This document shows positions 3,456 through 58,627 of a stretch of 64,000 nucleotides of DNA, piece by piece. This DNA is from Straminergon stramineum (taxonomy: Eukaryota > Streptophyta > Bryopsida > Hypnales > Calliergonaceae). The position numbers were made by a program, and so were the translations under genes. The stretch lies in NCBI GenBank assembly GCA_963920665.1, contig OY987265.1:15381001-15445000 (forward strand), read 5' to 3'. Positions within the stretch are counted from its first letter, which is position 1. Each line of letters opens with the position of its first letter. The notes under the pieces are model-generated. The model was not told the origin of the DNA and did no database searches. It worked only from the letters and a program-made list of their open reading frames with translations.

Positions 3456-4412
3456 TTAACCCCTAAAGGACCAAACATTGTTTTTTGGCAACATAGCGAT
3501 TTGAGGCAACTCACTACAAATGGAATGTTTAATTTTTTTCTTTGAAATTTTGACAAAAAAAAGTGCCCAAGGAATAGCTTTAAGGCTCAACAATTTTAAT
3601 TACTTTTGAATACATGGTTAAAAAGCTATTGTATGATATGTAGTTTTCATTACTCGGTGGGCAACTCAAGCAACAAAAAAAACTTCTTCTAAAATCACTT
3701 TTTTTTAAATAAAAATTTGAAATTGATTTTTTCTCTCTATATATATAAACATGGGAAGCTTTTAATCATTCAATTTTGATTTATGAGATGAAAGTTATAA
3801 AGAGTTTTAGTTGTAGATAGTTTGTATATAGTTATGGAATCTCTACTCTAAAATAAACTTTGAAGACCTTTATTTAACTCCATTTTCAATATTTTTGGAA
3901 AAAAATAAAAAATTTAAGTGTAGATTTTTTATTACGAAATTACAACCATTGGGATTGGCATTTTTCAATTCCGTAAATAAATTGTCAACAATTTCATATT
4001 TTGCATCATTCTCTACTTCTTTCTACTTACTAAGTTTTTCATATATGTTGTACAATTCCAAATGATCTAAATTTTTTCAAGAATGTAGACAACTTGCCTT
4101 GAAGAATGAATCCAAAGAGTTACAACCATTTTGGACATTATTTCATAATGATCTGACCTTGTGAAGTGCAACTGCCCGGGATTTTGTAAGGTCAAAAGAA
4201 ATCTTTTTGTCAATTTAAACGCTATTATCTTGCAATCTATACGGTGGAAATTTCTGAAATTTTTTTCACATCTTCTCAAACTAGCGTACTACAAGATCCT
4301 ATGGATACATGTGTCCAAAATTTTATTTTTTCTAAAATTTGGTACTTGTACTAGAAATGGCAGTTTTGGAGCGTTTTTGGTGAAAATATAGTCAAATACA
4401 TTTAGGGGTTAA
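3456..4412 (-). mobile_element. TTAA element, family A, reverse orientation
   Basis: The element is flanked by TTAA at 3456-3459 and 4409-4412. The left terminus is CCCCTAAAGGACCA and the right terminus reads inward as CCCCTAAATGTATTTGACT. Internally it is the reverse complement of the family A copy at 6392-7322. The tandem copy at about 18541-18565 has no insertion at the matching position (ATAAATTGTAATCC against ATAACTTAA...TTAAAATCC). The element is non-coding. Confidence 0.8.
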
Positions 4413-5160
4413 AATCCAACGTTTAGGAGTAGGGAAAATTTTTCCATTCAATGGCAATACTAAAATTACCAACAAATTTGAACCTAAATTGAAGAAGTTG
4501 AGGGTTTGAACTCATCATTAGCCATTTCTACCACTGATTAAAACAACAAACATCAACATACGTGATAAGAAGTTTTTATCTAGATACTTTGATATGTTGA
4601 TGATGAGAATGTTTGATATACTAGCATGAGAGATAAAAGTGTACCAAAACCACCCATTTTTTGAATGATTTGTAGCTTTAATTCAAAATGCTTGAACTAA
4701 AATAGAATACTTTGAAAATTGATAACAAATAATAATATCTTTCTAGAAACGTTGAATCCTATTCTTCTAATAAAAATTGTAATTTTTCCATATACCCATA
4801 GTGATGCTCTCTAAAAATAGAAAACCAACAAGCAATAGAAGGGGATCATGACCTTGAAAAAGCCTCACAATTGTTCAAACACCTACAATCCATTTGGTTT
4901 TGTACTTTGAAATTTCATGACAAAATGCAATCATAGTAATATAAATTCAATCCCAACCAATCTCTCCATAGCTCACCACATCCTATGTTGATGTGCTTAC
5001 ACTGAGGTAAAGAATATCCTCTCCTTATCAAATCATTTACCATTAGGATCTTGACTTAGACGATGGAGGAGATCAAAAATGGTCACAAGGAAACCAAATG
5101 AATTTAAAAAAAAAACTAACTAATGAAATCATTTACATACTAATGAAGTTGAGTACTACA
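4413..5160. repeat. Spacer module, unit 0 copy
   Basis: Homologous by eye to about 18590-20100, 23880-25400 and 51340-52800, with shared phrases such as GAAGAAGTTGAG.GTTTGAA and ATTCAAAATGCTTGAACT. It holds the empty TTAA (4678-4681) that corresponds to the filled site at 18827. No gene is seen. Confidence 0.7.
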
Positions 5161-6100
5161 AAAGAATCCGTTTCAATCACCACTTAGCAAAGACTCACTT
5201 GTAGAAGCCAACTTATGGCCTCTTTAAATGTATTGGTCATTGGAGAAACTTCACAGGGTGTGTGAAAATAGCAATTGCATTTTCATATGTATCCAGTGGG
5301 TGGAGATGGATACAATAAGAAACCCACATGTATTAGATTCTCTCAAGATTGACTAGTCTCCACTAATGAAGTTGTCCACCGATATATGGGTGAAACTTCA
5401 ACTCCTCCTTTCCCACTTGCCCACATAGACAAGACAAACAATTGAGCTTGTTTTGTCATATTGCTTGAATTAGCACAAAGCTTGCCCATGGGGATCACAT
5501 GGAAGTTGGCCTTTAGAGTAGGCCAAACCAAAGCTAATAAGGTAGAAGCACCCAAATGTAACACCAATTGTTTACGGACACCTAAAAAACAACCTAAATC
5601 CAAGCACTTGTGGACCCAAAGGAGACAAGTGGGGTTCTAAAGTAGACATGTAGGGTTCCAAGAAGTTGCCATTATTCCAAGAAGCAACCAATCACCCGCA
5701 CTCGATTCAAGTTTAGAGAGTGTTGCTTTTGGGTGTTTTTGTGCCCACTTTGGTGTTAGTCTAATGTCCACAGTAGGTGCATCTACGAAGTACTTTTCCA
5801 AAATTTGTATAATATTCATACAAGCTCAGAAAAATACGAAACCAATTTGGTTGGTTCCTAAACCATTTCCTGACACACACACATAATTTTTTCCTGTACA
5901 CACCCTCCATATCAACAAATCCAAAACAAGTGTCACATTTAGGTGCTTCTACCTTAACCCAGGGACCCAACAGAAGAACAGCTTCTTGGGTGATCAACAT
6001 GCCTTGGGCCAACCCAGAGCACCACAAATGATGGGATGAAGAAATTTCGAAAATCAAACCTGTTTCAGAGCCCAACAACATAAGTTATATAGCCAAACAA
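5161..6100 (-). pseudogene. Decayed copies of the small two-pass membrane-protein gene
   Basis: On the minus strand the start at 6081 reads MLLGSETGLIFEIS, which is identical to the start of the intact ORF at 26475-26666. Frame is then lost and the hydrophobic segments are broken. A second remnant near 5170-5210 keeps parts of the 3' end next to the conserved AAAGAATCCGTTTCAAT stretch. Between them lies sequence matching the remnants at 27304-27610 and 55217-55440. Nothing here could make the 63-65 aa product. Confidence 0.6.
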
Positions 6101-6150
6101 GTGGCCTCGAAATAAAAAAACAAAAAGTTGACATGTTGACATTGGTAGAA

Positions 6151-6354
6151 TCAGAGAAGGAACTTCAGGCTCATTGATGAATTTAGAAGCATGAACCAAG
6201 TGAGTTTAAAAAAAAAAAATTGCATACAATGTTTCAGCAATTGCACATCTTCATTGACAAACCTTCCTGCTCGCAGATGCACAATTATATATCCCAAGAA
6301 GCGTTGGTTGTCCAGGGGCTGATAATTAATGCCAATCACGTTGTTGGTTTCCAA
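6151..6354 (-). CDS. Conserved short ORF upstream of the membrane-protein module (uncertain)
   Basis: The 67-codon minus-strand ORF contains NNVIGINYQPLDNQ and FVNEDVQLLKH. The same frame is kept at 26769-26951 and 53939-54121, and a further trace lies near 55600-55720. It sits 5' of each membrane-protein copy. The start differs between copies and the last 20 residues here are unrelated to the others. It may be part of the leader of the neighbouring gene, or conserved only because the duplications are recent. I do not recognise a family. Confidence 0.25.
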   Translation of the reverse strand: METNNVIGINYQPLDNQRFLGYIIVHLRAGRFVNEDVQLLKHCMQFFFFKLTWFMLLNSSMSLKFLL

Positions 6355-6391
6355 ATGCTAGTTCAATTAATCATCCCTGCAATATGCTTCG

Positions 6392-7322
6392 TTAACCCCT
6401 GAAGTTCCATGACTATATTTTCATCGAAATTGCTCCAAAACTGCCATTTTTAGTACAAGTAACAAATTTTTGAATTTTTTTTTGACACATGTAACCATAG
6501 GATCTTGTTGTATGCTAACTTCATAATATCTGGTAAATTTTTAAAAAAAATTGACCACATGGATTGCAAGATATGAACTTTCAAATCCACATAAATCCTT
6601 TTTTAGGCCCCGTAAAAAACAGAGTAGTTGCACTTCACAAGCTCACTTTTCTATGAAAAAATGTCCAAAATGGTGGTGCTTCTTTGAATTATTTTTCCTA
6701 GACAAGTTGGTCACATACTTGAAAAATTTCAGATCATTTGGAATTATACAACATGTAGGAAAAAAATAGTAAGTAGACAATAGCAAAGAATGATTCAAAA
6801 TACTAAATTGTTGAGAATTTCATTATGAAATTGAAAAATGCCAATCCAATGGTTGCAATGTTGTAATAAATTATCTACATCCTATGATTTTATTTTGTTT
6901 TTAAAAAATTGAAAATTGAGTAAGATAAAGGATTGTAAAGTTTATTTTAGAGTAGAAAATCCTCAACCACTTGCAAACAATAAATCCTCATAACTTTTAA
7001 CTCATTGATCAAAATGGAATGATTTAAAGCTTTCCATATAGAGAGAGAGAACTCTAGAAAACCAATTTTGAATTTTTGTTTCTGAAAATAGTGATTTTTT
7101 CTAATCTTCCTGGACTGCCCATTTATTAAAAAAAAGTAACATATTAGGCCATAACTTTTGACTCATACATCCAAATGTCATGAAATTTAGTGCATATGAA
7201 AGATATTCCTCATCCCACCTTCTATTGAAATTTGGGCCAAAAGTATGGAAATTTCTAGTCATAATTACTTGCCCAAAATTGCTATGTAGCTGAAGTATGC
7301 ATGATGGTCCTTTAGGGGTTAA
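6392..7322 (+). mobile_element. TTAA element, family A, reference full-length copy (931 bp with both TTAA)
   Basis: TTAA occurs at 6392-6395 and 7319-7322. The element begins CCCCTGAAGTTCCATGACTA and ends GATGGTCCTTTAGGGG. Tandem copies at 26978-26981 and 54148-54151 have a single TTAA in the same context (TTTCGTTAATGCTATCAC and TTTCCTTAATGCTATCAT), so this is a clean insertion with a TTAA duplication. The interior carries no ORF. It is the type copy for the family A entries elsewhere in the window. Confidence 0.85.
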
Positions 7323-7971
7323 TACTTTATCTGATTAACATTGAGGTATTTAAGAAGACACAAAAACCATGAGGTCTTCAAATATTGATCCCCGTTACCA
7401 ACAACAACTCATCCATTTCAACACTTGTTTGTGCTTATTAGTGAGTGGTGCAATTAATCCCTGAATGCCGGGTTTGTGACCGTGGAAATCAGGCCTTTTG
7501 GAATTGTGTGACATCATCCACTTTAAAGAATTAAAAAATACTCATTGGGAGTCAAACTACTGTAGAAGATCTCTCCTTTCCAACCCTAATTCTGAAGATG
7601 AATAGTTGCAATTCTATCCTACATAGGAGAATTCCTTGACATTCCTTGAACAAAAAACGTTCACTACATCATTTAGGGATTAAGTAGGACTCAACTAAGT
7701 GCCTATGTCTTGTAGCTTGGAATGGGAATGGGATGTTTTACTGTCAACTATATTGCTAGACAACCTCCCACTACAAATATTGCATGAAGAACTCACACTT
7801 ACAAATCAAAATTTGGCTTCATTAGATTTGGTACTCATGCCCAAAGAGCCCTCCATGACTCTACACTGATCTCCCCTCGGCTACGTGTTGGTTAATTCAT
7901 CACAAAAGTAGTATGTAGCCAAATCTACTTGCTAAAGAAACTTATAGAGTAAATGAAATCATTGATGTACC
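7323..7971. repeat. Pre-kinase spacer module, unit 0
   Basis: Homologous to 29889-30301, 33223-33567 and 57267-57666, with shared phrases such as ATTTAAGAAGACACAAAAAC and ATGTCTTGTAGCTTGGAATG. It contains the small TTAA element at 7454-7683. No coding sequence is visible. Confidence 0.75.
7454..7683. mobile_element. Small TTAA element S1 (222 bp between its TTAA flanks)
   Basis: TTAA lies at 7454-7457 and 7680-7683. The termini are TCCCTGAATG on the left and, read inward, TCCCTAAATG on the right. Three tandem copies have one TTAA in the same context and no insertion: 30020-30023, 33354-33357 and 57398-57401 (GTGCAATTAAGTAGGACTC or close variants). This is one of the cleanest filled-versus-empty comparisons in the window. 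The element is non-coding. Confidence 0.85.
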
Positions 7972-9183
7972 TTAACCCCTAAAGGACCAAGTGTCCATTT
8001 CAAGTATGCAAGAAGTCTCAGGTAGGTACCTACACAACGGTGCTAGTATGTGAGCCCAAGAATGCGAGCTTGTGAGCATTGAGCCTACATTATAGGTACC
8101 TATAATATAGATACCCCACAATATAGAAGGTGTATGTATCATAAACACCTATAATATGGGTATCTGTAACATATATACCCTATAATCATAGATGGTTTCT
8201 ATGGTATATACACCTTTAACATAGGTGTATAGTATTATAGGCTCATAGGCTCACACTCCTATGCTCACATAATAGCAACCCTCGGTACCTACAATGCCAT
8301 TTTTGGTCAGATGTTCATGAAATTTGCACACAATGTGTAAATATGTACCTCCTTGGTGAAAAACTCATTTTTTATTCTAATTAGGTTTCCGAATCACAAG
8401 TTATGCCGTCATGAATTTTTTAGGCAGCTTGAACAATTTAGGAATCTTTTGCAAAAAAGCTCATCAACTTTTGAAATTTGGCATGTATATAACTAATACA
8501 ATATGACATAAAAGTTTCCAAAAGAAAATTTATTTTAGTCCTTGAATCACATTCTAAGAAGAATCAAACTTTGTAAGCTAGGTTGGGGCAATTTAAAAAA
8601 AATAAACATTTTCTTCTAACCTTAAGTCGTATTATCTTGCAATTTGTGAAATCAAAATTCTTGACATTTTTTCCACATATTCCTAATGTTTGTCTCTAAC
8701 TTTTCAAAATTGAGATTTCAAATAAAATATTTCCTCATTGCACAAGAAATCATCAAAAAATGACTAGTGTATTGCCAATTCACTGAATGTACTTGAATTG
8801 CAAGGTAATTTAGAGTAACCTAGACCCCATATTTGCTTCTAAATTTTTTTAGGGGTGACCCTAACATCATATACTGAAGAATGGTCAAAATTCTCATTTT
8901 TGTGTAGAGCAAACATTTCACTCCAAAAGGCATCAAAGTCTACTAACCTTGTTTTCGCAACAATGAAAAAAGTTTTTTTTCTTACTTCAAATGTTATAAT
9001 CTTTCAATTCATGTAGTCTCATGGGCTGAAATTTTTTCCCCTCTTAAATAAAATACATTACTTCAATTTCATTCAGTTGAAGTTTAAAAAAAAAGTTTCA
9101 CTTTTCATTTTGAATAGCAATAAAAAAAACGCAGTTTTTGACAATGTCTTCCTGAATACCCCCTCGTCCCTTTTAGTCGTTAA
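7972..9183 (+). mobile_element. TTAA element, family B, carrying a nested MITE
   Basis: Left flank and end are TTAA-CCCCTAAAGGACCAAGTG, and the right end is TTTTAGTCG-TTAA (9180-9183). It aligns along its length with 30302-31238, 34783-35713 and 57667-58627; the shared core includes TGACTAGTGTATTGCCAATT. About 250 bp of its 1212 bp is a later hAT-like insertion (8034-8284). No ORF is supported. Confidence 0.8.
8034..8284. mobile_element. hAT-like MITE nested in the family B element
   Basis: An 8-bp direct repeat GTACCTAC (8026-8033 and 8285-8292) flanks 251 bp. The inward termini are CAACGGTGCTAGTATGTGAGC and GAGGGTTGCTATTATGTGAGC, alike in about 18 of 22 positions and close to a CAGGGTTGC-type hAT end. 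Other family B copies (30302, 34783 and 57667) run straight through GGTAGGTACC without this block. The interior is a large imperfect palindrome of TATAGGTACC-like steps. Confidence 0.8.
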
Positions 9184-9396
9184 GATTGTGGCCAAACCAT
9201 GTAAGAACCCAAATTAAGCGCTGTATTGGACACAAAAATGTGTGCAGGGAACTTGTGCTTGGAGTCCGAGTCAGCTGGGAGGATCACGTATGTATGCTTG
9301 AATGATAAACAGATACAAAGCGGGCAGGACCATAAAGTCAAAAACTGATTGGTTCGAGGCAGTTTGAAAACTGCCCTTTGCAAGCAATTGCCACTG
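9184..9396. repeat. Start of the kinase module
   Basis: Homologous to 36479-36661, 58628-58846 and, more distantly, 21869-22045. Short ORFs here (for example 9180-9383, minus) are not kept in all copies, so I do not call a gene. Confidence 0.6.
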
Positions 9397-10310
9397 GTAA
9401 CCCCTAAAATTCTTTCATGTTTAGAGACCCAAAACTACTTCAAAACGCTCAACCCCAAAACAAGGTCAAAATCTTCATCAATATTTATTTATTTTTAAAT
9501 CCAACTATAGGATCCTTTGGTTAACTTGTTCGAAGGGAAATTATCCCAAAATTTTCAAGTGGATATCTCTACCAAAATCCAAGTTCAATGTGCTTGAACT
9601 TTAAAATGTAGGCTTTCCTAGCCCTTCCAAAAAGTGAAGTTTGGTCTTTCAACATTTTTAGAAAAAACATGTATGTCCTAAAACTTGTGTATTTTAACCA
9701 ATATCTTGGAAATTGGGTTGAAAACATATGTACATTTTTTTAACCAAAATCACTTTCATATTTATTCTTTTTAAATTGTAAAGTGAAAGGTGGTATTAAT
9801 TGAAAGATAAAAATAATATACTAATAACTTTTGGAAAAATTTGAGGATTGTTAATTCTAATGGCAAGAATGTTCTAATAAACAATCAATATCCTTGATTT
9901 TTATTTTCAATGAAAAATATTCAAAATTGAGAGAAAAAGATGACTTTACATGTTTTTTCTACCTTCATTGCCTGCAAAATTAAACTCCTCCTAACTTTGA
10001 CCTCACTATTTGGAATTGCATGGTTCAAATGTTTTTCAAAAATTATCAATCTGTAGAATCCCAAAAAATAATTAAGATTTTTTTACAATATATATTTTTT
10101 GCTACTTGATTGGAAATTGAAATTCAAAAAAATCCTTCTAACATTTGCAATATTTGTAGAATTTCATGTAACAAAGCCTCACAGGTGGATTATGATGAGT
10201 AGCATTCATTCTACCAAATTCATGCAAAATTTTCAAGTTGTGAAGTCAATAAATCTTGCCAAAGGTCTCAAAAAGCCCAAAGAGGGCTCCTTGGTCCTTT
10301 GAGGGGGTAA
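9397..10310. mobile_element. TTAA-group element, family F, old and shared by all kinase modules
   Basis: The ends are GTAA-CCCCTAAAATTCTTTC and GGTCCTTTGAGGGG-GTAA, matching the CCCCTAAA...TTTAGGGG terminal pattern with flank GTAA in place of TTAA. The same block lies at 36662-37599 and 58847-59778, and a version without a clear right end at about 22046-22840 and 49516-50250. It therefore predates the tandem duplication. No empty site is available, so transposon status is inferred from the ends only. Confidence 0.5.
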
Positions 10311-12545
10311 TGATAGAAGAAGCATTATCACCCACAACAAAACGAGTATCAACTTTTCTAGGAGTCTTCAAGCTAAACATAATATATTTTAGAAATAAAT
10401 TTAAGAATAACCCCTATCTAACTAACCAACAATATATGGTTGATCTAAATTTTCCGGATTGTATTAGACTGTTAGTGAGGGTAATTACATTCCTTTAACT
10501 ATTTTTAATATTCTTATAGGTAGTATTGAGGATTAACTATTGGAAGCTTTCTTTTTCATTGAAAATGATATTCATTTGATTTTTAAGAATTCCTCAAAGG
10601 TATATATATGTACCATTAGTGGAAGTGTAAAGCTCACCAATTCTACTTGATTTCTTGGCTATGAGCTAAGCTTTCCAAATTCACTCGATTTGAAATCTAA
10701 AAAATTGTACTTATCCATTTGCTTTCAAAATGGTCCCAATAAAAAGTGTAAATTATTTTCATGATTTTCACCATTGAAAATTTAAACATGAAAGTTTTGA
10801 TTTGGAGTTATTTGTGATTTCTACTTATAAAAAATTAGATTTCGACAATAGCAATGTGGATTGTGTATAAAGTTTGATAGCTCTTCATTTAAACTAAAGG
10901 TTTTGGGAAGTGCATTTAAGAATGCTAATACAATTTCTAGTTGTTCATATCACCAATAATCCCAAAAAACTCTTACATACCAATTTCTCAAACATTGTGA
11001 GTAGAAGCAACATATGAAAAAAAGGATACATACATTTCTCTCAATGTTATAATCTCGCGACTCCTATGCAAGTTCACACTCAAATTTAGTATGCATACTA
11101 AGAAGCAAGTTCTTTACTCATCTATATCGTTAGATAGATTACAAAACACAATTTCCTTCATTGGGATAAGCTTAAGCTCTTTTTTCATAGGAAAAACACA
11201 CTTGGAAAGTCTTACTAATTCAATAGGCACTCAAGGGTTCACAAACAATCCAAGCATTGAATAGTCCCATGAGGTATCTTGAGACCAACAAATTAAAATA
11301 AATCTTTCATAATGATCTTATTAGAAAGATATTGTTCCTTATTGTGGCCCAATTCAAGGCAACGGACACCACTCATTTAGGATTAGCACTAGTGCTCCAG
11401 CCAAGGAGGATTCACCCCCTCATAGCACCAACCAAGGATAAATGTAAAAAATTTCCCCCTTATTTTATGCCATAGTTTTTCCTATTTTTTTGCCTCCCAC
11501 AATTAATTTGGGGCCTCTTATTGTAGATATGAATTCAAAATTTCCAAAATTTATCACATATTGCAAGTAAAAAATTCCAACCTTTTTCCTAGGAATAAAC
11601 CATAGGGGCAATAAAGGGATCAATTGACCTTGGCTAGGAAATTCATTGTTTCTCACATTTGTCTTTATGTGGACACCCCCCTTGGAAACTTCAATGATGA
11701 TATGAATGAGAACTCCTTATTCTAACCATAATGGCCTATTTTACCTTAGTTATATTGACTTTGTTAAAATTTGCAGTTGCTTGTTTCTAAATTTTCTACA
11801 CTAAAATTAATTATTGGCGAACGAGGGTTATCTTTCGAGAATGCTATGTGCATGCTTGTCACTCTCACTTTAATTGCATTGTAAAATAGTGTATGGGTAG
11901 GCATAGGAAGATTTAACTCTAAGTTACAATCTAGACTTTGTATCATAAGGTATGAAATCATAGAGCCATGAAATATTGATCAAGATAATTGATCATATAT
12001 CAAGTCTCCACATTCATCTTTTGCTTTTATTGTTTATGGACCAAAGACAAGGCTTTGAATTGATAAACCCATCCTGGTAGTCATAAAATTATACAAAGTA
12101 GTATTTCTTCCAACAATTGAAAATGGGTCCATAGCAAATAAAAGATTTATGAAACAAAATCATAAAACTAAATGACATAATGTGAGAATTAAAACTCTTC
12201 AAATAGTAACTTAGGCTATTTGCCATCTATAATCAAGTTCTCCAATTGATTGCTTTAAGTTACTAATTCGAAATTCATAAACTACGAGAATACATATTGA
12301 AATCCTCTTCATAAGTTGAAACTTGCCTTCAAGAAAATTCCCGAACCTTCATAGCACTATGCAAGCATAGACATTATCTTATCTATTTGTACAATATACA
12401 AAATGGCCATGTACACAAGGCTTTCTTGCATTAAAAAATTGTGCAAGACCCTCTCAAAGGTACCATGATCCTTCAAATTCCAAAATAATACTTACAAACA
12501 CTACTCAAATACAATAAGTTTGTAAGGCAACTCTTCTCTTGATTT
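10311..12545. repeat. Kinase 3' flank, copy A
   Basis: This lies downstream of the kinase on the minus strand and is homologous to 37600-39722 and 59779-62047. A shorter version occurs without a kinase at 22840-23870 and 50290-51335. Recurrent phrases include TATTGTTTATGGACCAAAGA and AATTCATAAACTACGAGA. No long ORF is present. It may hold the kinase 3' UTR, but I cannot place a polyadenylation site. Confidence 0.7.
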
Positions 12546-13889
12546 CTATGCATACCAATATTTCCAAGGAGTTTCTTCAAGTAAATCCACTATCTCTACA
12601 AATGTAGGTCTAGCTGTGGGATTTGATTGCCAACACCTACACAACAAATTGCAAGCCCATTCTTCAACATGGTGAGGCACCTCTGGCCGCCCCCCTTGAA
12701 GAACAAGGTCATAGTCATTGGTACGATGACCTTCAAAAGGAAGTTTCCCTGTCAAAATCTCATAACACAACATCCCATAACTATAAACATCCGCTTCTTT
12801 TGTAAATAGATTTGGATTCTTGTTCACCACCTTATCTTTAACGGCTTGCAATATTTCTGGAGCCCTAAAGAAGCCAGTTCCAACAACTCCAATTGAACAC
12901 TCATAGTCAGCAACATAATAATCATAATCTTCTCCAATTGCAACCTCAACATTGGCTACATCATAATTGTAAACATACTTGTCCATCTTCTTGATGAGCC
13001 AACTTCATAACACATTTGATGCTTTGAGGTCCCTATGAACAATATTGAGATTGTGCAACTCAACCATCCCTCTTGCAATAATACACATGATCCGGATCTC
13101 TCTCATCCTTGAAAAGGGTCCAAAATCAATGCAAGTTCTTGCCTTCATGCGGCGATCAATGAGAGTCCGGAGGTCTTCGTTTTCCCTTGCTAAAAGAAAC
13201 GCAAACCGACCATCTGGCAATAAAGTTCCACATTGTACGTCACAAATGTATTTCGCAAGTTGAGATTCCCCACAATTTGTACGTTTCACAATCTCTTCAT
13301 AGTGCCGGAACATTCCTTTGGGCCATTGTTTCTGCAAATCTAGCAAAAAGGTCCCCTTCCAAAAGACCTTTAACACATACTTCACTCCACGTTCCTCATC
13401 GTTAGAAGTGAGCCTTGGGCTCTTCCAAGTGACATGGGTATGGTAGAGCTCTGCTTGCCCACCGGCCGCAAACTTCTCACCAACCTCAAACTTCCCATAA
13501 TCATTGATTCCACCATCACCAAATGTGCGAAAGAACTTACCCCAAGTGGGATGCTTTTGCAGAGACTCGAAGACTTTCACATTGCTCACCTCGGACTCCT
13601 CTTCGGCAAACTCAGAATGCTCAATAAGCTGGCTCCAATGCACCTTGGATCGCTCAATCGCATCCTCCACACTCGTGCCATCCCCACTCTCAGCCTTCCT
13701 CCTCGCACTGCTCATGGGCTCAGAGCATGCAGAAAAAAAAGTCGTCGAAGAAGAGGGGATTGCAGACTCCCTTGCAGATGCTAAGGCTGTCACATATGCT
13801 GAGTCGCTGGATGCACCCATACAGCAACCAGACTCCGACACACTTCTCTGATTCTCCAAACAGTGAGTGCACTCGCTTGGATCGGCCAT
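12546..13889 (-). pseudogene. TKL-type protein kinase, copy A, broken by one in-frame stop
   Basis: The reading frame spans 447 codons from MADPSECTHCLENQ to the end WKYWYA. It is interrupted once, by TGA at 13005-13007, directly after the catalytic loop HRDLKASNVL. Copy C has TGT (Cys) at this position, so one base change explains the stop; the six codons that follow are in frame. Upstream are the glycine-loop region FAAGGQAELY and the lysine motif VLKVF. Downstream are DYE in place of DFG, APE, and the subdomain IX and XI motifs DVYSYG and RPTF. A protein ending at the stop would lack the whole C-lobe and be inactive. Readthrough is possible but nothing in the sequence argues for it. The start is chosen because all three copies begin at the equivalent Met. 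Confidence 0.85.
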
Positions 13890-14750
13890 CTAGGAACAGT
13901 AAGCTTGTGATGGGGTTCGCTCGCTCTTCCTGCTCGCCCTGCACCCAACTGGTGAAGGCATTAGGGTTTCACATGAGGGGAGTTTCAAATAGCGATGTGC
14001 CTGGACACAACGGAACTGACCCACAATATGTAGGAAATTCATATCGTAGCGGAACCGACCGGTCTACTTTGCCGAATGGATGTTCTCGAAAACATCGAGC
14101 AGGAAAAGTCGGAATCCAAGCCTCCTGAAAAGCAAGAGCGTAGAGTCTACAGCTACGGGGGCACACTCCAGGGACGTACTCCTTCAAGCTCAAGCAAAGA
14201 ATCCACTCGGACATGCATCATGAGAAAATGCGCACAGACCGAAAAAGAACGAAACTGAGTTCACGAACTGAAAACTTTTGCAAAACGAAGAGGTAGAATA
14301 TTGTAGTGTACCGTCTATTTGTCGTCGTGAGCAGGTGCAGGCTCCTGGGCGACGTTGTTGTTGTATCCACGGGTGACGCTGGTGTTGCAAATCAAAGACC
14401 CCTCCTGGCTGGCGAACAACCGCGGATGCTTCTTGTGAACCTCCGTCCAACTCTCCCCTCAAGCTAAGCTTATCACAGCGCAGCAGCTACCATGAGGTCG
14501 GACAAGGGTTTTGCAAACTAGGCCAGAAGGCTGACTCCTTCACTCCACCGCGTGAGGCCCGCGAAGTTCGCATCGAAGATGTTGGTACAGTGCAGAGTGC
14601 GGACATTTCAGAAGCCTGGAGGTAAATGGTTACTGATAAAAATAAATAACGAGCTTCACGGTTTCAATCACAGTGTTGCATCGAAGGAGGAGAATCTAGG
14701 CTCATTGTTGACCCTTAAACAATGTCACGCTCATTATTTGTCGGACGGAT
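13890..14750. other. GC-rich 5' flank of kinase copy A
   Basis: This flank is clearly richer in G+C than its surroundings and is conserved at 41049-41990 and, up to the LTR insertion, at 63365-63722. It should contain the kinase promoter and 5' leader on the minus strand. Several short overlapping ORFs exist on both strands. One, plus strand 14076-14258, keeps its frame in all three copies and is listed separately. On the minus strand a frame reading WTEVHKKH...VAQEPAPAHDD (about 14330-14460) is shared with copy B. I cannot tell whether these are old exons or chance frames in a GC-rich promoter. Confidence 0.5.
14076..14258 (+). CDS. Conserved short ORF divergent from the kinase (uncertain)
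   Basis: The 60-codon plus-strand ORF starts MDVLENIEQEKSESKPPEKQ and ends TEKERN. It begins 187 bp from the kinase start and runs in the opposite direction. The same frame is kept in copy B (from 41238, with a 15-bp in-frame insertion) and copy C (from 63552, to a stop within TGCGCATAG). Between copies A and C the changes are about half synonymous, so selection on the peptide is not shown. It is hydrophilic, lysine- and serine-rich and has no domain that I recognise. It could equally be leader sequence of the kinase read on the wrong strand. Confidence 0.25.
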   Translation: MDVLENIEQEKSESKPPEKQERRVYSYGGTLQGRTPSSSSKESTRTCIMRKCAQTEKERN

Positions 14751-18540: not shown

Positions 18541-18826
18541 ATGCATAAATTGTAATCCAAAGTTTATGAGTAGGAATTGTTTTTCCATTGGATGACAATA
18601 CTAAAAAGCCCTGGTAAATCAGGACATAAAATGAAGAAGATGAGTGTTTGAACCTATCATTGGCAAACATTTCTACCACCAATTAAAATGGCAAATATCA
18701 ACATATGTGATATTAAGAAGTTTTTTTTCAAGATATGTAAATATGTTGCTGATGAGAATTTCAAATGTAACAGTGAGAGAGATTATTATGTAACAAAATC
18801 ACTCCCTTTTTGAACAATTTGTAGCT
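18541..18826. repeat. Spacer inside the near-identical duplicated tract
   Basis: No gene. It belongs to a 1,110-bp stretch (18495-19604) that I read as identical to 46041-47150. Confidence 0.7.
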
Positions 18827-26951: not shown

Positions 26952-26981
26952 TCATCCAGCAAAATGAATTTGTTTCGTTAA

Positions 26982-41203: not shown

Positions 41204-41237
41204 CGTAGCGAAACCGACCGGTCTACTCTGCCGGATG

Positions 41238-47150: not shown

Positions 47151-47281
47151 ACCTTTAAAAGAAAAACCTTATCACTAATGTACGTAAAAATTTCAAAACA
47201 TAAAAAATAAAAATTCCATCATAGTGAATTGCCCCAAATCACTTTGTTGCCAAAAATGTAACCTTGTCCTTTAGGGGTTAA
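46373..47281 (+). mobile_element. TTAA element, family A (duplicate of 18827-19734)
   Basis: The left flank is the same mutated TTAC as in unit 1. The right end is TTGTCCTTTAGGGG-TTAA (47278-47281). Non-coding. Confidence 0.8.
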
Positions 47282-48013
47282 TTCAAAATGCTTGAACTAA
47301 AAATAGCGTACTTTGAAAATTGGTAACAAATAATAATATCTTTCTAGGAACATTGAATCCTATTCTTCTCATAAAAATTGAAATTTCTTTGGAATGGATA
47401 CTCATAGTGATGTTCACTAAAAATAAAAATAAACAATAGAAGGAGAGCATGACCTTTACATTGCCTCACAATTGTTTGAACACCTACATTCTGTTCAATT
47501 TTCTTATTTGAAATTTCATGATAAATGCATATGTATTGATTTATATTCTATCCTAACCAATCTCTTGACAACTCACTACATCCCATGCTAACATGCTTAC
47601 ACTCACGTAAAGAACATCCTTTCCTTAGCAATCATTTACCATCAAGATCCTCACTTAGATGATGGAGGAGCTCAAATGTGCCGAATTTTTCTGCTAATTT
47701 TGGGACCAAACAACCAAATCTAGAAAAACAAATGTGAAGATTGTTTGACGGAAAGCCAAAGAATACATTGATAATCAACAGAATCATAGAACAATTTGTC
47801 ACTTATAATTTACCATCAAGACATTTCTTTAATGGGTACTTGAAGGAATTACTTCAATGAAGCTTAGTAAGAGTGATAGTGAAAAGGTTGTTTTTATAAT
47901 AAAATTCATTATCCTTCATGAATCCTCAAAGGATATGGGACAACTTGAAGATGAGAGCTTGACCACTCATTGATAGTTAAAATCTAGAAATTGTAATCAA
48001 CATAGAACTTTAG
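47282..48013. repeat. Spacer module, unit 2
   Basis: Duplicate of 19735-20554, with a deletion of about 70 bp near 47675 relative to unit 1. No gene. Confidence 0.6.
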
Positions 48014-48336
48014 ACCTCATTTTGGCATAGCAGAATAATTGTTTTCAAAAACTTTTGAGCTTAGAAAAGTTAGAAAATCAAGTTCAATTTCATCTTTCAA
48101 AACATGTTTGATATTTTAAGCACATTATCAAAATTTATGAACAAAATTTAGAGAGAATGTTTGATAATATCAAAGAAATTGTTCCTTCCAATCCTTATTT
48201 GGATTTTGTCCATAAGTTTTGATTGAAAGCTTAAAAATCTCAAATGGTTGTTTTGGAGATTAAAGTTAACTTGATTTCCCAACTTTTTCTAGTTGATAGT
48301 TTTTCCAAAAATTATTCTACTATGCCTAAATGAGGT
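48014..48336. mobile_element. MITE-like inverted-repeat element (duplicate of 20555-20878)
   Basis: The same ACCTCATTT-type ends as the unit 1 copy. Non-coding. Confidence 0.6.
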
Positions 48337-48548
48337 TTGAAATTCTATTTTAAACATAATTCATGCTTTTCACTTAATTAGGAGCATTTGAGTTCCTTCT
48401 AATCTTGAATTTACATACCCCAATTAGGTTGCTTGACTTCCTACCATCTTAATTGTATAAAGATCTAGTCATCTCATGTTGTCCAATTCACATTTTCGAA
48501 GGGATGTGAGACTCCTTGAAATATCAAAATGTTGGTTCATTTTGTTAT

Positions 48549-49326
48549 TTTCACCATGTAGATTGCAAGATAGTAGCATTTCAAGTGACAAAACCCTTTT
48601 TTTTGGCTATGCAAATAACTGGGCAATTGTTCTTCACAAGCTCACATTTGTATGAAGAAATGTCCTAAATGGTGGTGCTTCTTTGGATTCATTCTTCAAG
48701 GTAAGTTGGCTACATGATTGAAAATTTTCAGATCATTTGGATTTGTAATTGAACTGTAAAAGAATATTAAGTAGATAGTAGTCGAGAATGATTCAAAATA
48801 TTAAATTGTTAAGAATAAGAATTTAACTAAAGAATTGAAAAATGGCATTCCCAATGGTTGTTATGTTGTAATAAACAATCTACATCCTATGATTTTGTTT
48901 ATTTCCAAAAATATTGCAAATTGAAGAAGATAAAGGACTTGAAAGTTTATTTTAGAATACGGAATACATAACTACCCATAAACAAAAAATCCTCATAAAT
49001 TTTTACTCATTCATCAAAAATGGAATGATTTAAAGCTTCCCAAGTACATATAACTCTAGAAAACCAATTTCATATTTTTGTTTCGGAAAAAAGTGATTTT
49101 TAAAAATTTGCCCAAACCGCCCATTTATGAAAAAAAAATAACAAATTAGGCCTTAAGTTTTGACTCATATTTCGAAATATCATGAAATTTAGTGTTGATG
49201 AAAGATATTCCTTGTCCCCATCTTCTCTTAAAGTTTGGGCCAAATATCTGCAAATCTCTAGTCACATGTACCTGCCCAAAACTGCTAAGTAGCAAAAAAA
49301 ATGCATGTTGGTCCTTTAGGAGTTAA
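48549..49326 (+). mobile_element. TTAA element, family A, 5' truncated (duplicate of 21090-21866)
   Basis: The right end is GGTCCTTTAGGAG-TTAA (49323-49326). The truncation point is the same as in unit 1, so it predates the duplication. Confidence 0.7.
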
Positions 49327-51335
49327 CTTACCTTGAGATTGTGGTTGAATCATTTGAGAATCCAAATTAAGCACTCTATTGGACAAAAAAATGTATGCAA
49401 AGTGGGAGTCTGACTCCGTCGAGTGGAACATGTATGTCTAAATGGTAAAGACCACAACTTGTTGGTATTCAAAATCTATTGATTAGAGGCAACAGTGCTC
49501 TATGCAAGCAATTGCCACTAGTAACACCTAAAACTCTTTCATGTGTAGAGCCCCGAAACTACTTCAAAATACTCATCCCCAAAGTAAGGGCAAAATCATC
49601 AACAATATTTATTTATTTTTGAAATCCAACCAGAGGATCTTATGATTAACATGTTCAAGTATATTGTTCCAAAAATTTTAGAGCAAATATCCCCACCAAC
49701 TATAAGTTCAATTGGACTAAACTTTCAAATGTAGGCTTTTCTAGCCCTTCCAAAAAGTGAATAGTTTTGTCTTTCAACATCTTTAGAAAATAACACATAA
49801 TACAATGTCCTATAATCCGTGCATTTTAGTCAATATGTTGGAAAATGGATTGAAAAAACATATAAAAAAATGTAATTGAAAATTCTTTCATATTCATTTC
49901 TTCTCAAAAAATAAAAAGTGAAAGGTTTTACTAAATGTAAGAGAAAAAAAATATACTAATAACTTTTGGTAGAATTTCAGAATTGTTAATCCAAATGGTG
50001 AGAATGATCTAGAAATCAATTGATATTCTTTATTTCTTATTTTTACTTGAAAATTTGAATATGGAGAAATGAAGAGAATGTTACAGATTTTTTCTACCTT
50101 CATCACACTGCAAAATAAAGCTTTTTAATACTTTTGCCTCATCATTCAAAATAGAATGGTTCAATGTTTTTTGAGTAGTTGTCAATAATTAAGATTTTCT
50201 TAGAATACATTTTTTGTTGGTGGTTTTGACATTGAAATTGGAAAAACTTGTCTAACTTTTGCAATATTTCTTAGAATAAAATGGAACAAAGCTTCACACA
50301 TAGATTATGATGACTAGCATTTAGACTAAACTATTTATGCAAATTTAGTGTAGAAAGTAACCTTTTCAAGCTTCTTTGTTAAGAAATACTAGGATTGCTT
50401 TAGGCAAGTAGAACAACCATTATCAATTCTCTTTTTGTTGGTTTTGGAGTAGCCCAAAGACTCTTTTGGGCTATGATGGATAGCATACTTCAAATGTTCA
50501 TAACAAATTCACACTTTGTCAAAAAAACAGTGTAATTTTCATAGCCCTTGATGTTTCTCACACTTATCTTTATATGGAAGAAAATTTAGAAACTATAACA
50601 ATAGTACAAGAATAAACTCCTAATTCCAACCACAATGGACTATTTTACCTTAGTTAGATTGATTTTGTTAAAAGTTACAATTGTTTGTAATCTGAATTTT
50701 CTATATTACAATTTATTATTTTTGAACTAGGGTGGCCTTTAGGGATAGGTATGTGTTTATTCTTCACTTTGGCTTCAAATGCATTGCATGTAAGAGAAGC
50801 ATAAGAATAATAAACTTCACACTAAAGACTTTTGTCTTGTATAGGACAAACTCAAAGAGCCAATAAAATATTAATCACGATAATTAAACATGCCAATACT
50901 CCATAGTCATCTTTGGCTTCTATTGTTTATGGACCAAAGATGAGGCTTTCAAGTGAAAAATTGGCCATCCTAGTCATATAGTTATAGTATTTTTCTTAAT
51001 GCTTTGAAATGGATCCACAATATTCCAAAGAGGTTTAGAACTTTATAATAAAACCAAATGCCATAATGTGACAACTAACTACTTCAAATTGCACCCTTAG
51101 CTACCCTTAAACTACAATCACTAGAAGAAACCAGTGTTGTTTCATCTATTGAATAAAGTTATCTAATTGACAACTTGACAATGGCTGTATTACTAATTCA
51201 AAACCTCTGAGCTACTAGAGTCTATGTCTAAATACTAAATATAAGTTGAAACTTGCTTTCAAGAAGATTATTATACCTTCATTATACCACAAAAGCATGG
51301 ACACTGTTTATATTCCTTGTAGTGGCAATCCTAAA
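49327..51335. repeat. Kinase-less remnant of the kinase 3' flank, unit 2
   Basis: Duplicate of 21867-23870. It includes the family F-like block from about 49516 and the flank phrase TATTGTTTATGGACCAAAGA near 50922. No coding sequence. Confidence 0.7.
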
Positions 51336-51471
51336 AGTACAACCAAATCTAGACATAAATTGAAGAAGTTGAATGTTTGAACCTATCAATCATTGGCCAC
51401 TTCTACCACCGATTAAAATGGCAAACATCAATATATGTGATAAATTGTTTTTGTCAAGACACATAGATATG

Positions 51472-52342
51472 TTAACCTCTAAAGTCCTATGACTATATTT
51501 TCACCGAAAGTGCTCCAAAACTAACGTTTTTAGTACAAGTACCACATTTTTGAATTTTTTTGACACACATAACTATAGGATCTTGTATTATGTTGATTTG
51601 AGAACATGTCACTAAAATCATATTTTTGGCCTTGCAAAAAATAGTGCAGTTGCACTTCACAAGCTCACTTTTCTATAAAAAAATGTCCAAAGTGGTGGTG
51701 CTTGTTTGAGTTCTTTTTCCTACACAAGTTGGCCACATGCTTGAAAAATTTCAGATCATTTGGAATTATACAACCTATAGGAAAAACATAGTAATTAGAC
51801 AATAAAAGAGAATGATTCAAAATACTAAATTGTGAAGAATTTAATTATAGAATTGAAAAATGCTAACCCCAATGGTTGCAATGTTATAATAAACAATCTA
51901 CATCCTATGATTTTATTTGTTTCCAAAAATATTGAAAATGGAGGAAGATAAAGGACTTTAAAGTTTATTTTAAAGTAGAAAATCCATCACGACCACAAAA
52001 CAAGAAATCCTCATAACTTTTGACTCATTGATCAAAATGGAATGATTTAAAACTTTCCACTTGTATATAACTCTAGAAAACCAATTTCAAATTTTTGTTT
52101 CTACAAAAAGTGATTTTATTTTAATCTGCCCGGACTTCCCATTTACAAAAGAAAATAACATATTAGGCCATAACTTTTGACTCATATTTCCAAATGTTAT
52201 AAAATTTAGTACATATAAAAGATATTCCTTGTCCCCACCTTCTATTAAAATTTGGGCTAAAGATATGGTAATCTCCAATCACATGTACATACCCAAAAGT
52301 GCCATGTAGCCAAAATACACATGATGGTTCTTTAGGGGTTAA
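51472..52342 (+). mobile_element. TTAA element, family A, with a small internal deletion (duplicate of 24010-24939)
   Basis: TTAA lies at 51472-51475 and 52339-52342. About 60 bp near 51610 is missing relative to unit 1 (the TTTCAGAAATTTCC stretch). The ends are CTCTAAAGTCCTATGACTA and TTCTTTAGGGG. Confidence 0.8.
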
Positions 52343-53646
52343 TAAGAATTTCTGATATATCAGTATGAGAGATATAAGTGTACCAAAACTGCCCATTTTT
52401 GGAAAATCTGTAGCTTAAATTCAAAATGCTTGAACTAAAAATAGAGGGCTTTGAAAATTTGTAATAAATAGTAATATCTTTCGTGAAATATTGAATCATA
52501 TTCATTTGATAAAAATTGTAATTTCTGCATATACCCACAGTGATGCTCGCTCAAAATAGAAAACCAGCAATAGCAGGGGAGCATGACCTTAAAACTGCCT
52601 CACAATCATTCAAACACCTACAATCCACTTGATTTTCTATTTTGAAATTTCATGACAAATGCACAAATAGCGATATAAATTCAATCCCAACCGGTCTCTC
52701 TAGATCCTGTGTTGACATGCTTTCACTGACATAAAGAATATCCTCTCCTTAGCAATCATTTACCATCAGGATCCTGAGTTCCTGACTTAGACAATGTAAG
52801 GTAGAAGGCTCAAGAATGGCACATCTAAGGAGAAAAATAGATGTGTAGAAGAAACTGGTTGTCCAATGATTTCCAATTTTTTTTTGGTAGACAGAGAAAT
52901 TGAAAAAGAAACAAACTGCAATTTAAATTGTAATTTTCTGAATTAGAATGAATTAGATATGAATAGCCAAAGTGAAAAGTCTGATGGTTGCTAATAATGA
53001 TCATAGACTTAAGTAGTAATGAATTATCATGTGCCTTTGAAAAGGGCAAATCGGTCCAGAAAATAGATGAAGTGGGTGCTCACTATGTTCAGGAAAGTTC
53101 CATAATGAGGGAATAGAGTGTCCTAAATCCAGCAAGAGAAATATGTATCTTAGAGGTTTTTTTCTGGGACCATGGAGCCAAAGTCTAGTGTTGTGGCATA
53201 GTCATAGTGGTTTAAATTTGGAAGGACCATCCTCCATTCTTTGCATGCTGTATTGCTATAGTGCAAAAGAAAAACATTGATGTACCCTAAACTTTATATT
53301 TATCATTTCTTTCTTATTGTCATCTTGAATTCTGTGTTCACAATTAAATGATGCATTCATGATTAATGAATCACATGTATTGGTAGTACAAAAGCACTGT
53401 TCACTGCCCTAAAATCACACACTTGTAGTAACATTTTCCTACCTCAAAAAATGGTGTCCATTTCAACAACCACATGCTCTGTATATGAGCCACTCCTATA
53501 GTTGCTTAAAAAATGCCCCGTCCAATTAAGGACCTTCTCCTATAGGAGCTCAAAAACAGTCACAAGGAAACAGAATCAAATTGAAAAATATAAACAAAAG
53601 AATAAATAAATTACTCATGAAGTGGAGTATTACAAAAGAATCCGTT
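52343..53646. repeat. Spacer module, unit 2, with the empty S2 site
   Basis: Duplicate of 24940-26474. A single TTAA at 53009-53012 marks the unoccupied S2 site. No gene. Confidence 0.75.
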
Positions 53647-53938: not shown

Positions 53939-54121
53939 TCATAAATATTTGTAGAAGCAAAAGCCCAGTGAAGGGTTTAATTGCATCCAATGTTTCAGCA
54001 ATTTCACATCTTCATTGACAAACCTGCTCGCAGATGCACAACAATATCCCTCAAAGCATTGGTTGTCCGTGGGCTGATATTTAATGCCAATCACGTTGTT
54101 GGGTTCCAAACCCTGGTCCAA
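53939..54121 (-). CDS. Conserved short ORF upstream of membrane-protein copy 3a (uncertain)
   Basis: Sixty codons, starting MDQGLEPNNVIGIKYQPTDN and ending CFYKYL. In frame with 26769-26951 over its full length. Its status is the same as for that copy: possible upstream ORF or leader. Confidence 0.3.
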   Translation of the reverse strand: MDQGLEPNNVIGIKYQPTDNQCFEGYCCASASRFVNEDVKLLKHWMQLNPSLGFCFYKYL

Positions 54122-54479
54122 TCATCCAGCCAAATGAATCTGTTTCCTTAATGCTATCATTGATTAACATTAGCAAAAGGGAAGAGGACACAAAAACTGT
54201 TAGGTCTTCAATACTGATCCTGTTACCAACAGCAACTCATCCATTCCAACACTTGCTTGTACTTATCAGCAAGTGGAAATGCCCATGTGGGTAGAGCTTG
54301 GAATGGAGATAGGGTTGTCCATCGTCAACTCTGTCATTGGGGAAATAGCAATTGCATTTTCATGCGGATCAGTGGGTGGAGATAGATACAATAAGAAACC
54401 CACACATATTAGATTCTCTCAAGATTGACTAGTCTCCACCAATACAGTTGTCCACCAACATGGGTGAAACTTCAACTCT
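54122..54479. repeat. Membrane-protein module spacer, unit 3
   Basis: Carries the empty family A site TTAA at 54148-54151. Homologous to 26952-27350. No gene. Confidence 0.6.
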
Positions 54480-55216
54480 GGTAGTCTGCTCTTAAGCGCC
54501 CGTTTAAGGGTTGGTTGGCCCTTGTGATGGTTCATCGATGCAAAAAATTATTTTTCCTTATTATTTAGTTGAAGAAAAAATGATGTGGACTCTAACCAAA
54601 GTGATTTTGTATTTTTTGGAGTATTTTTGAATTATTTATGAATTTCTAAAGAATTTTGTCATAGGTACCTATTTCTTGATCGTAGGCCTTACAAAACCCA
54701 CACATGCGTAGTCACCAAAAACAAGCACTGCAACATGTAGAAAGTAAAAGACAAGGTTCAAAAATGCGACCTTTACTAAACTAAACTCCTAAAGGGCCAA
54801 GGTTTATTTTTTGACAAAAACCACTTGAAATTGCCATTTCTGCTACGTTCATTCATTCAAGAAAAAAATTAAATTAAAACATCTAACTATAGGATCTTGT
54901 ATTATACTTGTATGAGATCATGTGATAAATTTTTTTTATCAAGTTTGACCTTAGAGATTGAAAAATATTAGCATTCAAAGTTGAGGGGGAAAAGTTTTTT
55001 TGAATACAAGTAAAAATCTCAGAAATGGAACCACCTTGGTTCTTATTCGATCCACTAGGAAAATATAAAGGACCATTTGACAAATGTTAAATGGCTCTGA
55101 CATCATTGACAAAACATTCAATGCTTTACACATCCATTTTTCAACCTGTTCATGTCCATTTCAGACCCTGACTAGGGACAGTCTCAAGAACACGGGCGAA
55201 ATTTGAGCAGACTACC
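54480..55216. mobile_element. PIF/Harbinger-like non-autonomous element (737 bp)
   Basis: The ends are a perfect 12-bp inverted repeat, GGTAGTCTGCTC, followed at a similar distance on both sides by CGCCCGT. Paralogues (for example 27340-27362) read TTCAACTCCTCCTTTCCC without the block, so it is an insertion into the module. The duplication at this site is not clear. The related element at 35714-36468 has TTA on both sides. The middle contains family D-like TTAA material (CTCCTAAAGGGCCAAGG). No transposase. Confidence 0.65.
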
Positions 55217-55744: not shown

Positions 55745-57266
55745 TTAACCCTGAAGTTCCATGACTATGTTTTCATCAAAAACGCTCCAAAACTACCATT
55801 TTTAGTACAAGTACCAAATGTTTGAAACAAAATTTTTTTTTGACACATGTAAGTGTAGGATCTTGTAGTATTTTGACTTGAAAACATGTGGTAAAAATTT
55901 CAGAAATTTCCACCATGTAAGTTGCAAGGTATCAACTTTTGAATTCGCATAAATCTTTTTTTGGGCCTTGCAAAAAATAGGGCAATTGCACTTCACAAGC
56001 TCACTTTTGTATGAAAAAATGTCCAAAACGGTAGTGCTTATTTGGGTTCTTTTTTCTAAATAAGTTAGTCACATGCTTGAAAATTTTCAAATCATTTGAA
56101 ATTGTACCACATATAGGAAAAAGATAATAAGTAGATAGTAGTAGAGAATGATTCAAAATACTAAATTGTTGAGAATTTAATTATGGAATTGAAAAATGTC
56201 AATCCAATGGTTGCAATGTTGTAATAAAAAAATCTACATCCTATGACTTTGTTTTTTTCCAAAAATATTGAAAACATAGTAAGATAAAGGAGTTTAAAGT
56301 TTATTTTAGAGTAGAAAATCCTTAACTGCCCACAAACAAAAAAATCCTCATAACTTTTGACTCATTGATCAAAATGGAATGATTTAAAGCTTTTCACATA
56401 TATATATATATATACCTCTAGTAAATCAATTTTGAATATTTGTTTTTAAAAACAATGATTTTTTCTAATCTGCCTACACTATCAATTTACAAAAAAAGCC
56501 CATTAACCCCTACAGAACCAAGGCACATTTCACGCAGAAATTGTCAAAAACTGCCACTTTTTAGGGCAGCAAGAAAAAAATGATAAAGAAAAGCAGTTTT
56601 TTCAAAACTCAATCGTACAAACTTGTACTAAACTTCTTTGGAAATGTGTGAAAAAAAATTTAGAAACTTTGACCGCATAGATTGAAGGATTATAACATTT
56701 GAGGTAAGGTAAAAAAGGCTTTTTCCAACCTTGCATGACAAGGCCTGCAAACTTTAACTCCTTCTAGAATGAGATTCTTACACTAAACATGGTTATTTTT
56801 TTTGGACATTTGCATCTTGTATCATGTAAGCTACACACACACCAAATTTGAAAATCATAGGAAGAGTTTTGCACATGCTGCCCGAGCTGCCCGCAAAGTT
56901 TAGGGCTGCATAACTATTGATCCGGGCACCTGATCGGAAAAAAAATTATATTTTCAAGAAGGGGGTACATAGTTACACATTATATCCCAATTTCATGAAC
57001 ATCCGACCCAAAATGACTTTGTAGGAACCTACCCAACATTTCTTGCGTACATTGAATGGACACTTAGTCCTTTAGGGGTTAACATATTAGGCCATAACTT
57101 TTGACTCGTATTTCCAAATGTCATGAAATTTAGTGCATATGAAAGATATTCCTCTTCCCCACCTTCTCTTAAAATTTGGGCCAAAAGCAAGGAAATCTCT
57201 AGTCATACTTACCTACCCAAAATTGTTGTGTAGCCCAAAAACACATGATGGTCCTTTAGGGGTTAA
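55745..57266 (+). mobile_element. TTAA element, family A, host of a nested TTAA element
   Basis: The outer TTAA is at 55745-55748 and 57263-57266. The outer ends are CCCTGAAGTTCCATGACTA and GATGGTCCTTTAGGGG. With the 566-bp nested insertion and its duplicated TTAA removed, the length returns to about 956 bp, close to other family A copies. It carries an (AT)n tract near 56398-56414. Confidence 0.85.
56513..57082 (-). mobile_element. TTAA element, short family B form, nested in family A
   Basis: TTAA lies at 56513-56516 and 57079-57082. The ends are CCCCTACAGAACCAAGGC and TTAGTCCTTTAGGGG. In reverse orientation it follows the family B start (GGACTAAGTGTCCATT). The host sequence resumes at CATATTAGGCCATAACTTTT, which in intact family A copies follows TAA directly. 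This is a TTAA element that landed in an older TTAA element at TTAA. Confidence 0.85.
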
Positions 57267-57666
57267 TATTTTACCTGATTAACATTAATGTATTTAAGAA
57301 GACACAAAAACCATGAGGTCTTCAAATATCAATCCCCGTTACCAACAACAACTCATCAATTCCAACACTTGTTTGTGCTTAGCAATGAGTGGTGCAATTA
57401 AGTAGGACTCGCCTAAATGTCTATGTCTTGTAGCTTGGAATGGAAATCGGGTCATCTACCATCAACTATAGTACTAGACAACTTCCCACTACAAATATTG
57501 CATGAGGATCTTACACATAAAGATAAAAATTTGGCTTCACCAAATTTGGTACTTGTGTACAAAAATCCCTCCACGACTCTAGATTAATTTCTCCCCTACA
57601 TGTTGGTTAAATCATCATGAAAGTAGCACACAACCAATTCTATTTGCAAAAAATCATTGATATACC
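57267..57666. repeat. Pre-kinase spacer, unit 3
   Basis: The empty S1 site TTAA is at 57398-57401. Homologous to 7323-7971. No gene. Confidence 0.7.
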
Positions 57667-58627
57667 CTAACCCCCAAAGGACCAACTGTCTGTTCCAAGC
57701 GTGGTTTCAAGTATGCAAGAAATCTCGGGTAGGTACCTATGAAGTCATCTTTGGTCAAACGTTCATGAAATTTGGACACAATGCGTAAACATATACCTCC
57801 TTGGTAAGAAACTCATTTTCTTTGGATCGGGTCCCCGGATCAAAGGTAATACTGCCCTAAATGTTTTGGGCAGCTCGGGCAATTTAGGAATCTTTTACAA
57901 GAAAGGTCATCAACTTTTGAAATTTGGCATGTATATAACTAATACAATATGACATAAAATTTTCCAAAAGAAAACATATTTCAATCCTCAAATCACATTC
58001 TAAGAGGAGTCAAACTAGGTTGGGGTAGTTTCAAGAAAAACATGTTCTCCTAACTTTATGTCCTATTATCTTGCAATTTGTGTCGTCAAAATTCTTGAAT
58101 TTTTTTTCACATATTCCTAATGTTCGTCTCTAACTTTTCACAGTTCAAATTTCTAATAAAAAATTTCCTCATTGCACAAGAAATCAACAAAAAATGACTA
58201 GTGTATTGCCAATTCACTTAATGTATTTGAATTGCAGGATGATTGAGACTAACCTAGTCTCCATATTTGCTTCTAAATTTTTTCAGGAGTAAACCTAACA
58301 TCATATACTTGTGAATGGTCAAAGTTCTCGTTTTTGTGTAGAGCAAACATTTTACTCCAAAAGGGACCAAAGTCTGCTCACCCGGTTTTGCACGAATGAA
58401 AAGAAGATTTTTTTCTCACTTCAAATTGTTATAATCTTCCAATCCACACACTCAAATGGGCCGAAATTTTTTCCCCCCACTTAAATAAAGTAGAATACTT
58501 CAGTTTCATTCAGTTGAAGTTTCAGAAAAAAGTTTGAATTTTTCATTTTGAATAACATTCAAAAAACCCAGCAGTTTCTGACAATGTCTCCCTGAATACC
58601 CCCCTCGGTCCTTTAATTAGTGGTTGA
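57667..58627 (+). mobile_element. TTAA element, family B
   Basis: The left flank is CTAA, followed by CCCCCAAAGGACCAACTG. The right end is TCGGTCCTTTAATTAGTGG-TTGA. Both flanks are one change from TTAA. Non-coding and collinear with 30302-31238. Confidence 0.75.

Follow-up and report, generated by a model that had tools for sequence, protein, structure and literature searches.

What are the many short blocks that fill a 64,000-base stretch of the genome of the moss Straminergon stramineum (contig OY987265.1, positions 15,381,001 to 15,445,000; here called the window), and which enzyme could move them? The blocks begin with CCCC, end with GGGG and are mostly flanked by TTAA. The piggyBac superfamily is widely used as a genome-engineering tool, and most of what is known about it in nature comes from animals. 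An earlier note, made from the letters of the window, had assigned the blocks to this superfamily, and the assignment is now supported by the flanks of the ends across the genome and by the presence of the piggyBac transposase domain (PF13843) in elements with the same ends. We hold with high confidence that the blocks are non-autonomous transposons of the piggyBac superfamily, predicted to be moved in trans by the transposases of full-length elements of 4.5-7.5 kb located in the same genome. The ends, the TTAA target, the element-free relatives at four loci and PF13843 inside elements with matching ends are all observed directly.

Terminal motif and target site

Within the window, TTAACCCCTAAAGGACCA is matched 23 times at up to three mismatches, compared with 0.09 matches expected, and none of 100 shuffles reached that number. 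The earlier note had counted more than twenty blocks with a shared terminal pattern; the pattern is real, but the matches represent ends and not blocks. The ends contain a telomere-like heptamer, CCCTAAA, which is the plant telomere repeat. In the genome as a whole (326 Mb in 59 contigs), 5844 copies of the exact 14-base end CCCCTAAAGGACCA were counted, of which 5013 (86%) are preceded by TTAA, against 1.2% expected from the base composition of the window. The reversed patterns gave no match genome-wide. Enrichment of TTAA at genome-wide copies was one of the checks that the earlier note had proposed for the superfamily. All five exact motifs of the window are likewise preceded by TTAA. Among 41 exact ends from 40 distinct places (L001-L024), the 25-base flanks include one shared pair only, L013/L015.

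Short elements of the window

Families A-F were each sought with one seed, and matches were taken up to an E-value of 1e-4. Together they cover 21,973 of the 64,000 bases, a share of 34% that agrees with the earlier estimate of about a third and that applies to the window and not to the genome, since exact motifs are denser in the window (78 per Mb) than genome-wide (18 per Mb). The window is built largely of segmental duplications (17405-25592 resembles 44951-53012, 8284-14247 resembles 57732-63722, and 9249-16363 resembles 36514-43553), and many of its copies are therefore not independent insertions. The duplicated segments also carry a protein-kinase gene three times, at 12546-13889 (-), 39723-41048 (-) and 62048-63364 (-), the first copy being broken into two frames. 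The best named relatives of the kinase at 62048-63364 are proteins of Ceratodon purpureus, with 49% identity over the whole length, which by itself makes a moss host likely, and closer matches carry no organism label; its Ceratodon relatives make up a large family, and a search of plasmids returned distant bacterial kinases.

The copies are given here with their strand and the evidence by which they were recognized, and those of A and B were in addition compared with the full-length element PB061 described below. Family A includes a 949-bp element with TTAA on both sides at 3460-4408 (+; ends, made of two end pieces of PB061) and copies at 15366-16300 (-; family match, compared at the PB061 junction), 18831-19730 (-; flanks), 42578-43490 (-; family match) and 46377-47277 (-; a segmental duplicate of the copy at 18831-19730). 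Family B includes a 923-bp element at 6396-7318 (-; flanks, PB061 alignment), a copy at 24014-24935 (-; ends) with its duplicate at 51476-52338 (-; ends), and a copy at 55748-57262 (-; duplication map) that is interrupted by a C element. Truncated B copies lie at 21088-21862 and 48546-49322 and, stopping before the deletion junction, at 29433-29884 and 32813-33218 (all -; family match). Family C is represented by the nested 572-bp element at 56507-57078 (+; flanks, ends match PB059), with TTAA on both sides. Family D has a 929-bp element at 30306-31234 (+; ends match PB059) and copies recognized by family match at 7976-9169 (+), of which the stretch 8035-8281 does not align to D, 34787-35711 (+) and 57671-58614 (+). 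Family E has a 916-bp element at 17621-18536 (+; ends, family match), its duplicate at 45167-46082 (+; one end matches PB062), and fragments with an E-type end at 35917-36142 (-) and 54786-55006 (+), both recognized by ends and family match. The 906-bp F element at 9401-10306 (+; ends, family match) has GTAA on both sides and is 75% identical to L009, a relative elsewhere in the genome that combines exact ends with TTAA at either side; further F copies, all by family match, are at 22067-22883, 36667-37591, 49527-50346 and 58864-59774 (all +). Small forms were defined by TTAA on both sides, a CCC...GGG structure with no more than 3 mismatches in 10 end positions and a length of 60-320 bp. A 241-bp element with TTAA on both sides and divergent CCC ends was found at 25593-25833 (no strand; element-free duplicate), and the 222-bp form listed in the earlier note was not found in the window.

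The families had been described as unrelated in their interiors, a view that their alignment contradicts: A aligns with B in opposite orientation at 75% identity over 711 bp and has a deletion junction in common with it, and C aligns with D at 69% identity over 337 bp. Families A, B, D, E and F, together with L009, L012-L014, L016, L018 and L019, have a near-equal length of about 900-950 bp despite their different sequences. Folding of a typical B element gave no unusual score (z 0.17), and an Rfam search found nothing at the gathering threshold. Two further elements, elsewhere in the genome, carry exact ends and lie between two TTAA sites. The 735-bp element at 305-1039 of L010 (G000:C1:1550096-1550830) is a single long imperfect hairpin with two arms of about 350 bp and a folding z-score of -63 against 20 shuffles, and the two halves of the 71-bp element at 305-375 of L017 (G000:C1:4842203-4842273) are largely complementary.

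Insertions with element-free relatives

For 18 candidate elements, the flanks were joined and the window was searched for the same sequence lacking the element. Four independent insertions have an element-free relative carrying a single TTAA: the B element at 6396-7318, the A element at 18831-19730, the C element at 56507-57078 and the 241-bp element at 25593-25833. In particular, the B element has two such relatives (26837-27114 and 54007-54276), both with TTAA, and the 241-bp element is missing from a duplicate segment near 53009. The A element and its duplicate at 46377-47277 have one relative that reads TTAA (4537-4823) and a second that reads TAAA (24939-25159). The C element is absent from seven B copies, and the five read at the site have TTAA in one case, GTAA in two and ATAA in two. 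The relatives of the B element at 24014-24935 and its duplicate at 51476-52338 read GTTGATGATGAG or GTTGCTGATGAG, with no clean TTAA. The earlier claim of TTAA as the target at several independent loci thus stands for the four insertions but not for this last B element.

Full-length elements with a transposase

The genome contains at least 118 matches to PF13843 (DDE_Tnp_1_7), all above the curated cut-off and with a best E-value of 7.8e-79; the number is a lower bound because 116 of 473 candidates were scored. In fourteen of these matches the aligned part is free of stops. None of the 118 falls within the 64-kb window, as the earlier note had observed of transposases, and 0 of 14 control genomes have a match. 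A TTAA-CCCC end was visible within 1.5 kb of flank at 7 of 30 transposase loci only, and nine loci were therefore read further outward, with the boundaries of the elements located by means of the end motif. All nine, taken from the at least 118 matches, are bounded by TTAA and CCCCTAA-type ends and carry CCCC on both ends, as is characteristic of the 5'-CCC (YY) termini of the superfamily. The piggyBac transposases with matching ends that the earlier note had proposed to look for in the same genome are therefore present, with PF13843 in each of the nine loci.

Comparison between copies gives a second view of the boundaries. L055, L056, L057 and L060 are 96.9-98.5% identical to each other over 6.3-6.5 kb, and in the three compared at their edges the homology ends at TTAA or at most 8 bases away; their ends, CCCCTAAAGGACCAGACTGCGTTTTTTGGC and CCCCTAAAGTTCCTTCACTATGATTTCACT, are similar to those of A and B. 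Of the DDE domains of the four young copies, those of L027, L029 and L030 are free of stops and that of L026 contains one. The homology between L058/L045 (4657 bp) and L059/L049 (4459 bp) extends to within one base of their right TTAA, and L059 has a D-type left end. L061 is a 7470-bp element with A/B-type ends, L062 a 6037-bp element with E-type ends and L063 a 6405-bp element with the variant end CCCCTAAGCGCCCC; the boundaries of these three come from the motif alone, with no sister copy as an independent boundary, and the homology of L061 to B and of L062 to E reaches the terminal base.

Some candidates were discarded. L020, with exact ends 3.4 kb apart, contains no open frame of 90 aa; L021, with exact ends 6.4 kb apart, consists of A-type elements flanking an apparent host gene. 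Neither is regarded as an autonomous element. L029, considered as a transposase lineage apart from L026, was placed by alignment and tree in the same family.

The transposase

An open frame of 918 aa, at 3147-5900 of L057, matches PF13843 with an E-value of 5.7e-78 and, among solved structures, piggyBat (7.2e-25) and Trichoplusia ni piggyBac (2.4e-20). Counting along the alignment to 6x67, aspartates of this frame align to D268, D346 and D447 of T. ni piggyBac, the residues that PMC2533014 gives as required for excision. The D-D-D triad is present in 29 of 30 transposase copies, and the remaining one, L040, has D-N-D and is the transposase of PB061, the full element that A and B match best. 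A C-terminal cysteine-rich domain is a mark of the superfamily; the 918-aa frame has a Cys/His-rich tail, but Pfam matched PF13843 only. The N-terminal part of the frame is long and acidic and contains, at about residues 210-300, a Q-, E- and G-rich tandem repeat whose length varies among the four young copies. Just outside the element, at 8285-9652 (-) of L057, a further open frame of 455 aa shows a RING-finger-like arrangement of Cys and His and is probably a host gene.

A database search returned 49 relatives of the transposase. Five have an organism name and are all from animals (27-32% identity), while the closest, at 71% identity and below, carry no organism label; no named plant protein is among the 49, although the database contains Ceratodon proteins. 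A branch with 99/95 support separates the five named animal proteins from all 30 moss copies and 21 unlabelled relatives in a tree of 77 sequences whose root serves display only, and the moss copies are intermingled with the unlabelled relatives.

Alternative readings

TTAA is not exclusive to piggyBac. Sola3 uses it, and a superfamily of this kind might have produced the blocks. Kolobok elements also duplicate TTAA, as stated in PMC9587614, which gives their termini as 5'-RR, in contrast with the 5'-CC of the moss elements. A piggyBac-type transposase with PF13843 is what the full-length elements with matching ends contain, and we regard an origin from Kolobok or Sola3 as very improbable. A similarly slight chance is given to a target of TA or TTA, as for mariner-type or PIF/Harbinger-type elements, with the neighbouring T and A merely preferred. 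The GTAA on both sides of one F copy and the GTAA or ATAA of some C-free relatives would fit such a target. However, exactly TTAA stands before 86% of the 5844 ends, the partner enzyme belongs to PF13843, and GTAA, CTAA and TAAA variants are on record for piggyBac elements themselves (PMC10813416).

The repeats of the window might instead have arisen mainly by tandem and segmental duplication, with few true insertions. The abundance of duplicated segments and the excess of exact motifs in the window speak for this possibility; against it are the element-free relatives of four insertions, the 5844 exact motifs found genome-wide, and the single shared flank pair among 40 distinct places. The varied flanks refute duplication as a full account, which we consider the least probable of the alternatives, and duplication stands as a partial account of the density of the window. 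The preferred reading remains that of piggyBac-superfamily elements inserted at TTAA.

Origin of the short elements

The make-up of families A and B is that of a single transposase element, PB061 (the element of L061), reduced to its two ends. Indeed, positions 1-290 of the B element at 6396-7318 correspond to 1-303 of PB061 (75%), and positions 308-923 to 6857-7470 (79%). Eleven of the 13 A/B copies span this junction, and the other two are truncated before it. Nine copies join PB061 301-303 to 6853-6867, and two mutual duplicates join 258 to 6857. About 6.5 kb of the 7.5-kb PB061 are missing in A and B, which have both ends joined and no transposase gene, as is proper to non-autonomous deletion derivatives. 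On the simplest reading, a central deletion of about 6.5 kb would have arisen in one founder, which would then have multiplied and diverged into A and B.

The other families match different full elements. D has 88 and 442 bp in common with PB059, one at each end; C has 209 and 227 bp in common with the two ends of PB059; and E has 183 bp in common with PB062, at one end only. By these matches, C and D appear related to a second element type (PB058/PB059) and E to a third (PB062), from which they may have arisen likewise. None of the full elements read matches the middle parts of D and E, and none is a partner for F. The transposase would cut and paste full and short elements alike at TTAA, and the family has probably been active recently.

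Comparison with known systems and significance

Short piggyBac-derived elements (MITEs) are reportedly known in animals, with examples in corals and the mPok elements of Pokey. The moss elements resemble them in being short, in lacking a transposase and in having ends in common with piggyBac-type elements; they differ in their common size of about 900 bp, next to the 71-bp form of L017 and the 241-bp form of the window, and in that, for A and B, a parent with its deletion junction can be named. The full-length elements have the TTAA target, 5'-CCC ends, PF13843 and D-D-D triad of the superfamily (T. ni piggyBac, piggyBat, PGBD4-like), and are unlike named animal piggyBac in their moss host, their low identity, their size of 4.5-7.5 kb, the 918-aa frame and the well-supported branch in the tree.

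The earlier note had considered piggyBac unfamiliar in land plants, a point that needs correction, as occurrence in plants is already in print. PiggyBac-like elements are reported from fungi, plants and metazoans (PMC8086355, citing Bouallegue 2017) and from insects, fungi and plants (PMC10813416), a repeat table of a fern gives 1230 PiggyBac copies with 0.12 Mb (PMC6890710), and one of a grass gives a single 75-bp piece (PMC8319324). Among the matches listed for moss, bryophyte, Physcomitrium, Ceratodon and Marchantia literature, a coverage that leaves out most subscription journals, there is no description of native moss piggyBac elements. What is notable here is therefore the host, the number of elements and the path that can be seen to lead from full elements to short ones.

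Taken together, we lean towards the view that mosses have an old and diverse piggyBac branch of their own that still yields young full-length copies, with deletion derivatives in thousands of copies, and that piggyBac thereby ranks among the principal DNA transposons in a land-plant genome. By extension, the data suggest that library-based repeat annotation of moss genomes may miss a sizeable fraction of DNA transposons. This moss, with its many transposases, its young copies whose frames are open and its derived ends in the thousands, would offer a native plant system for studying the requirements of piggyBac ends, and also for following silencing and the way short elements arise from full ones.
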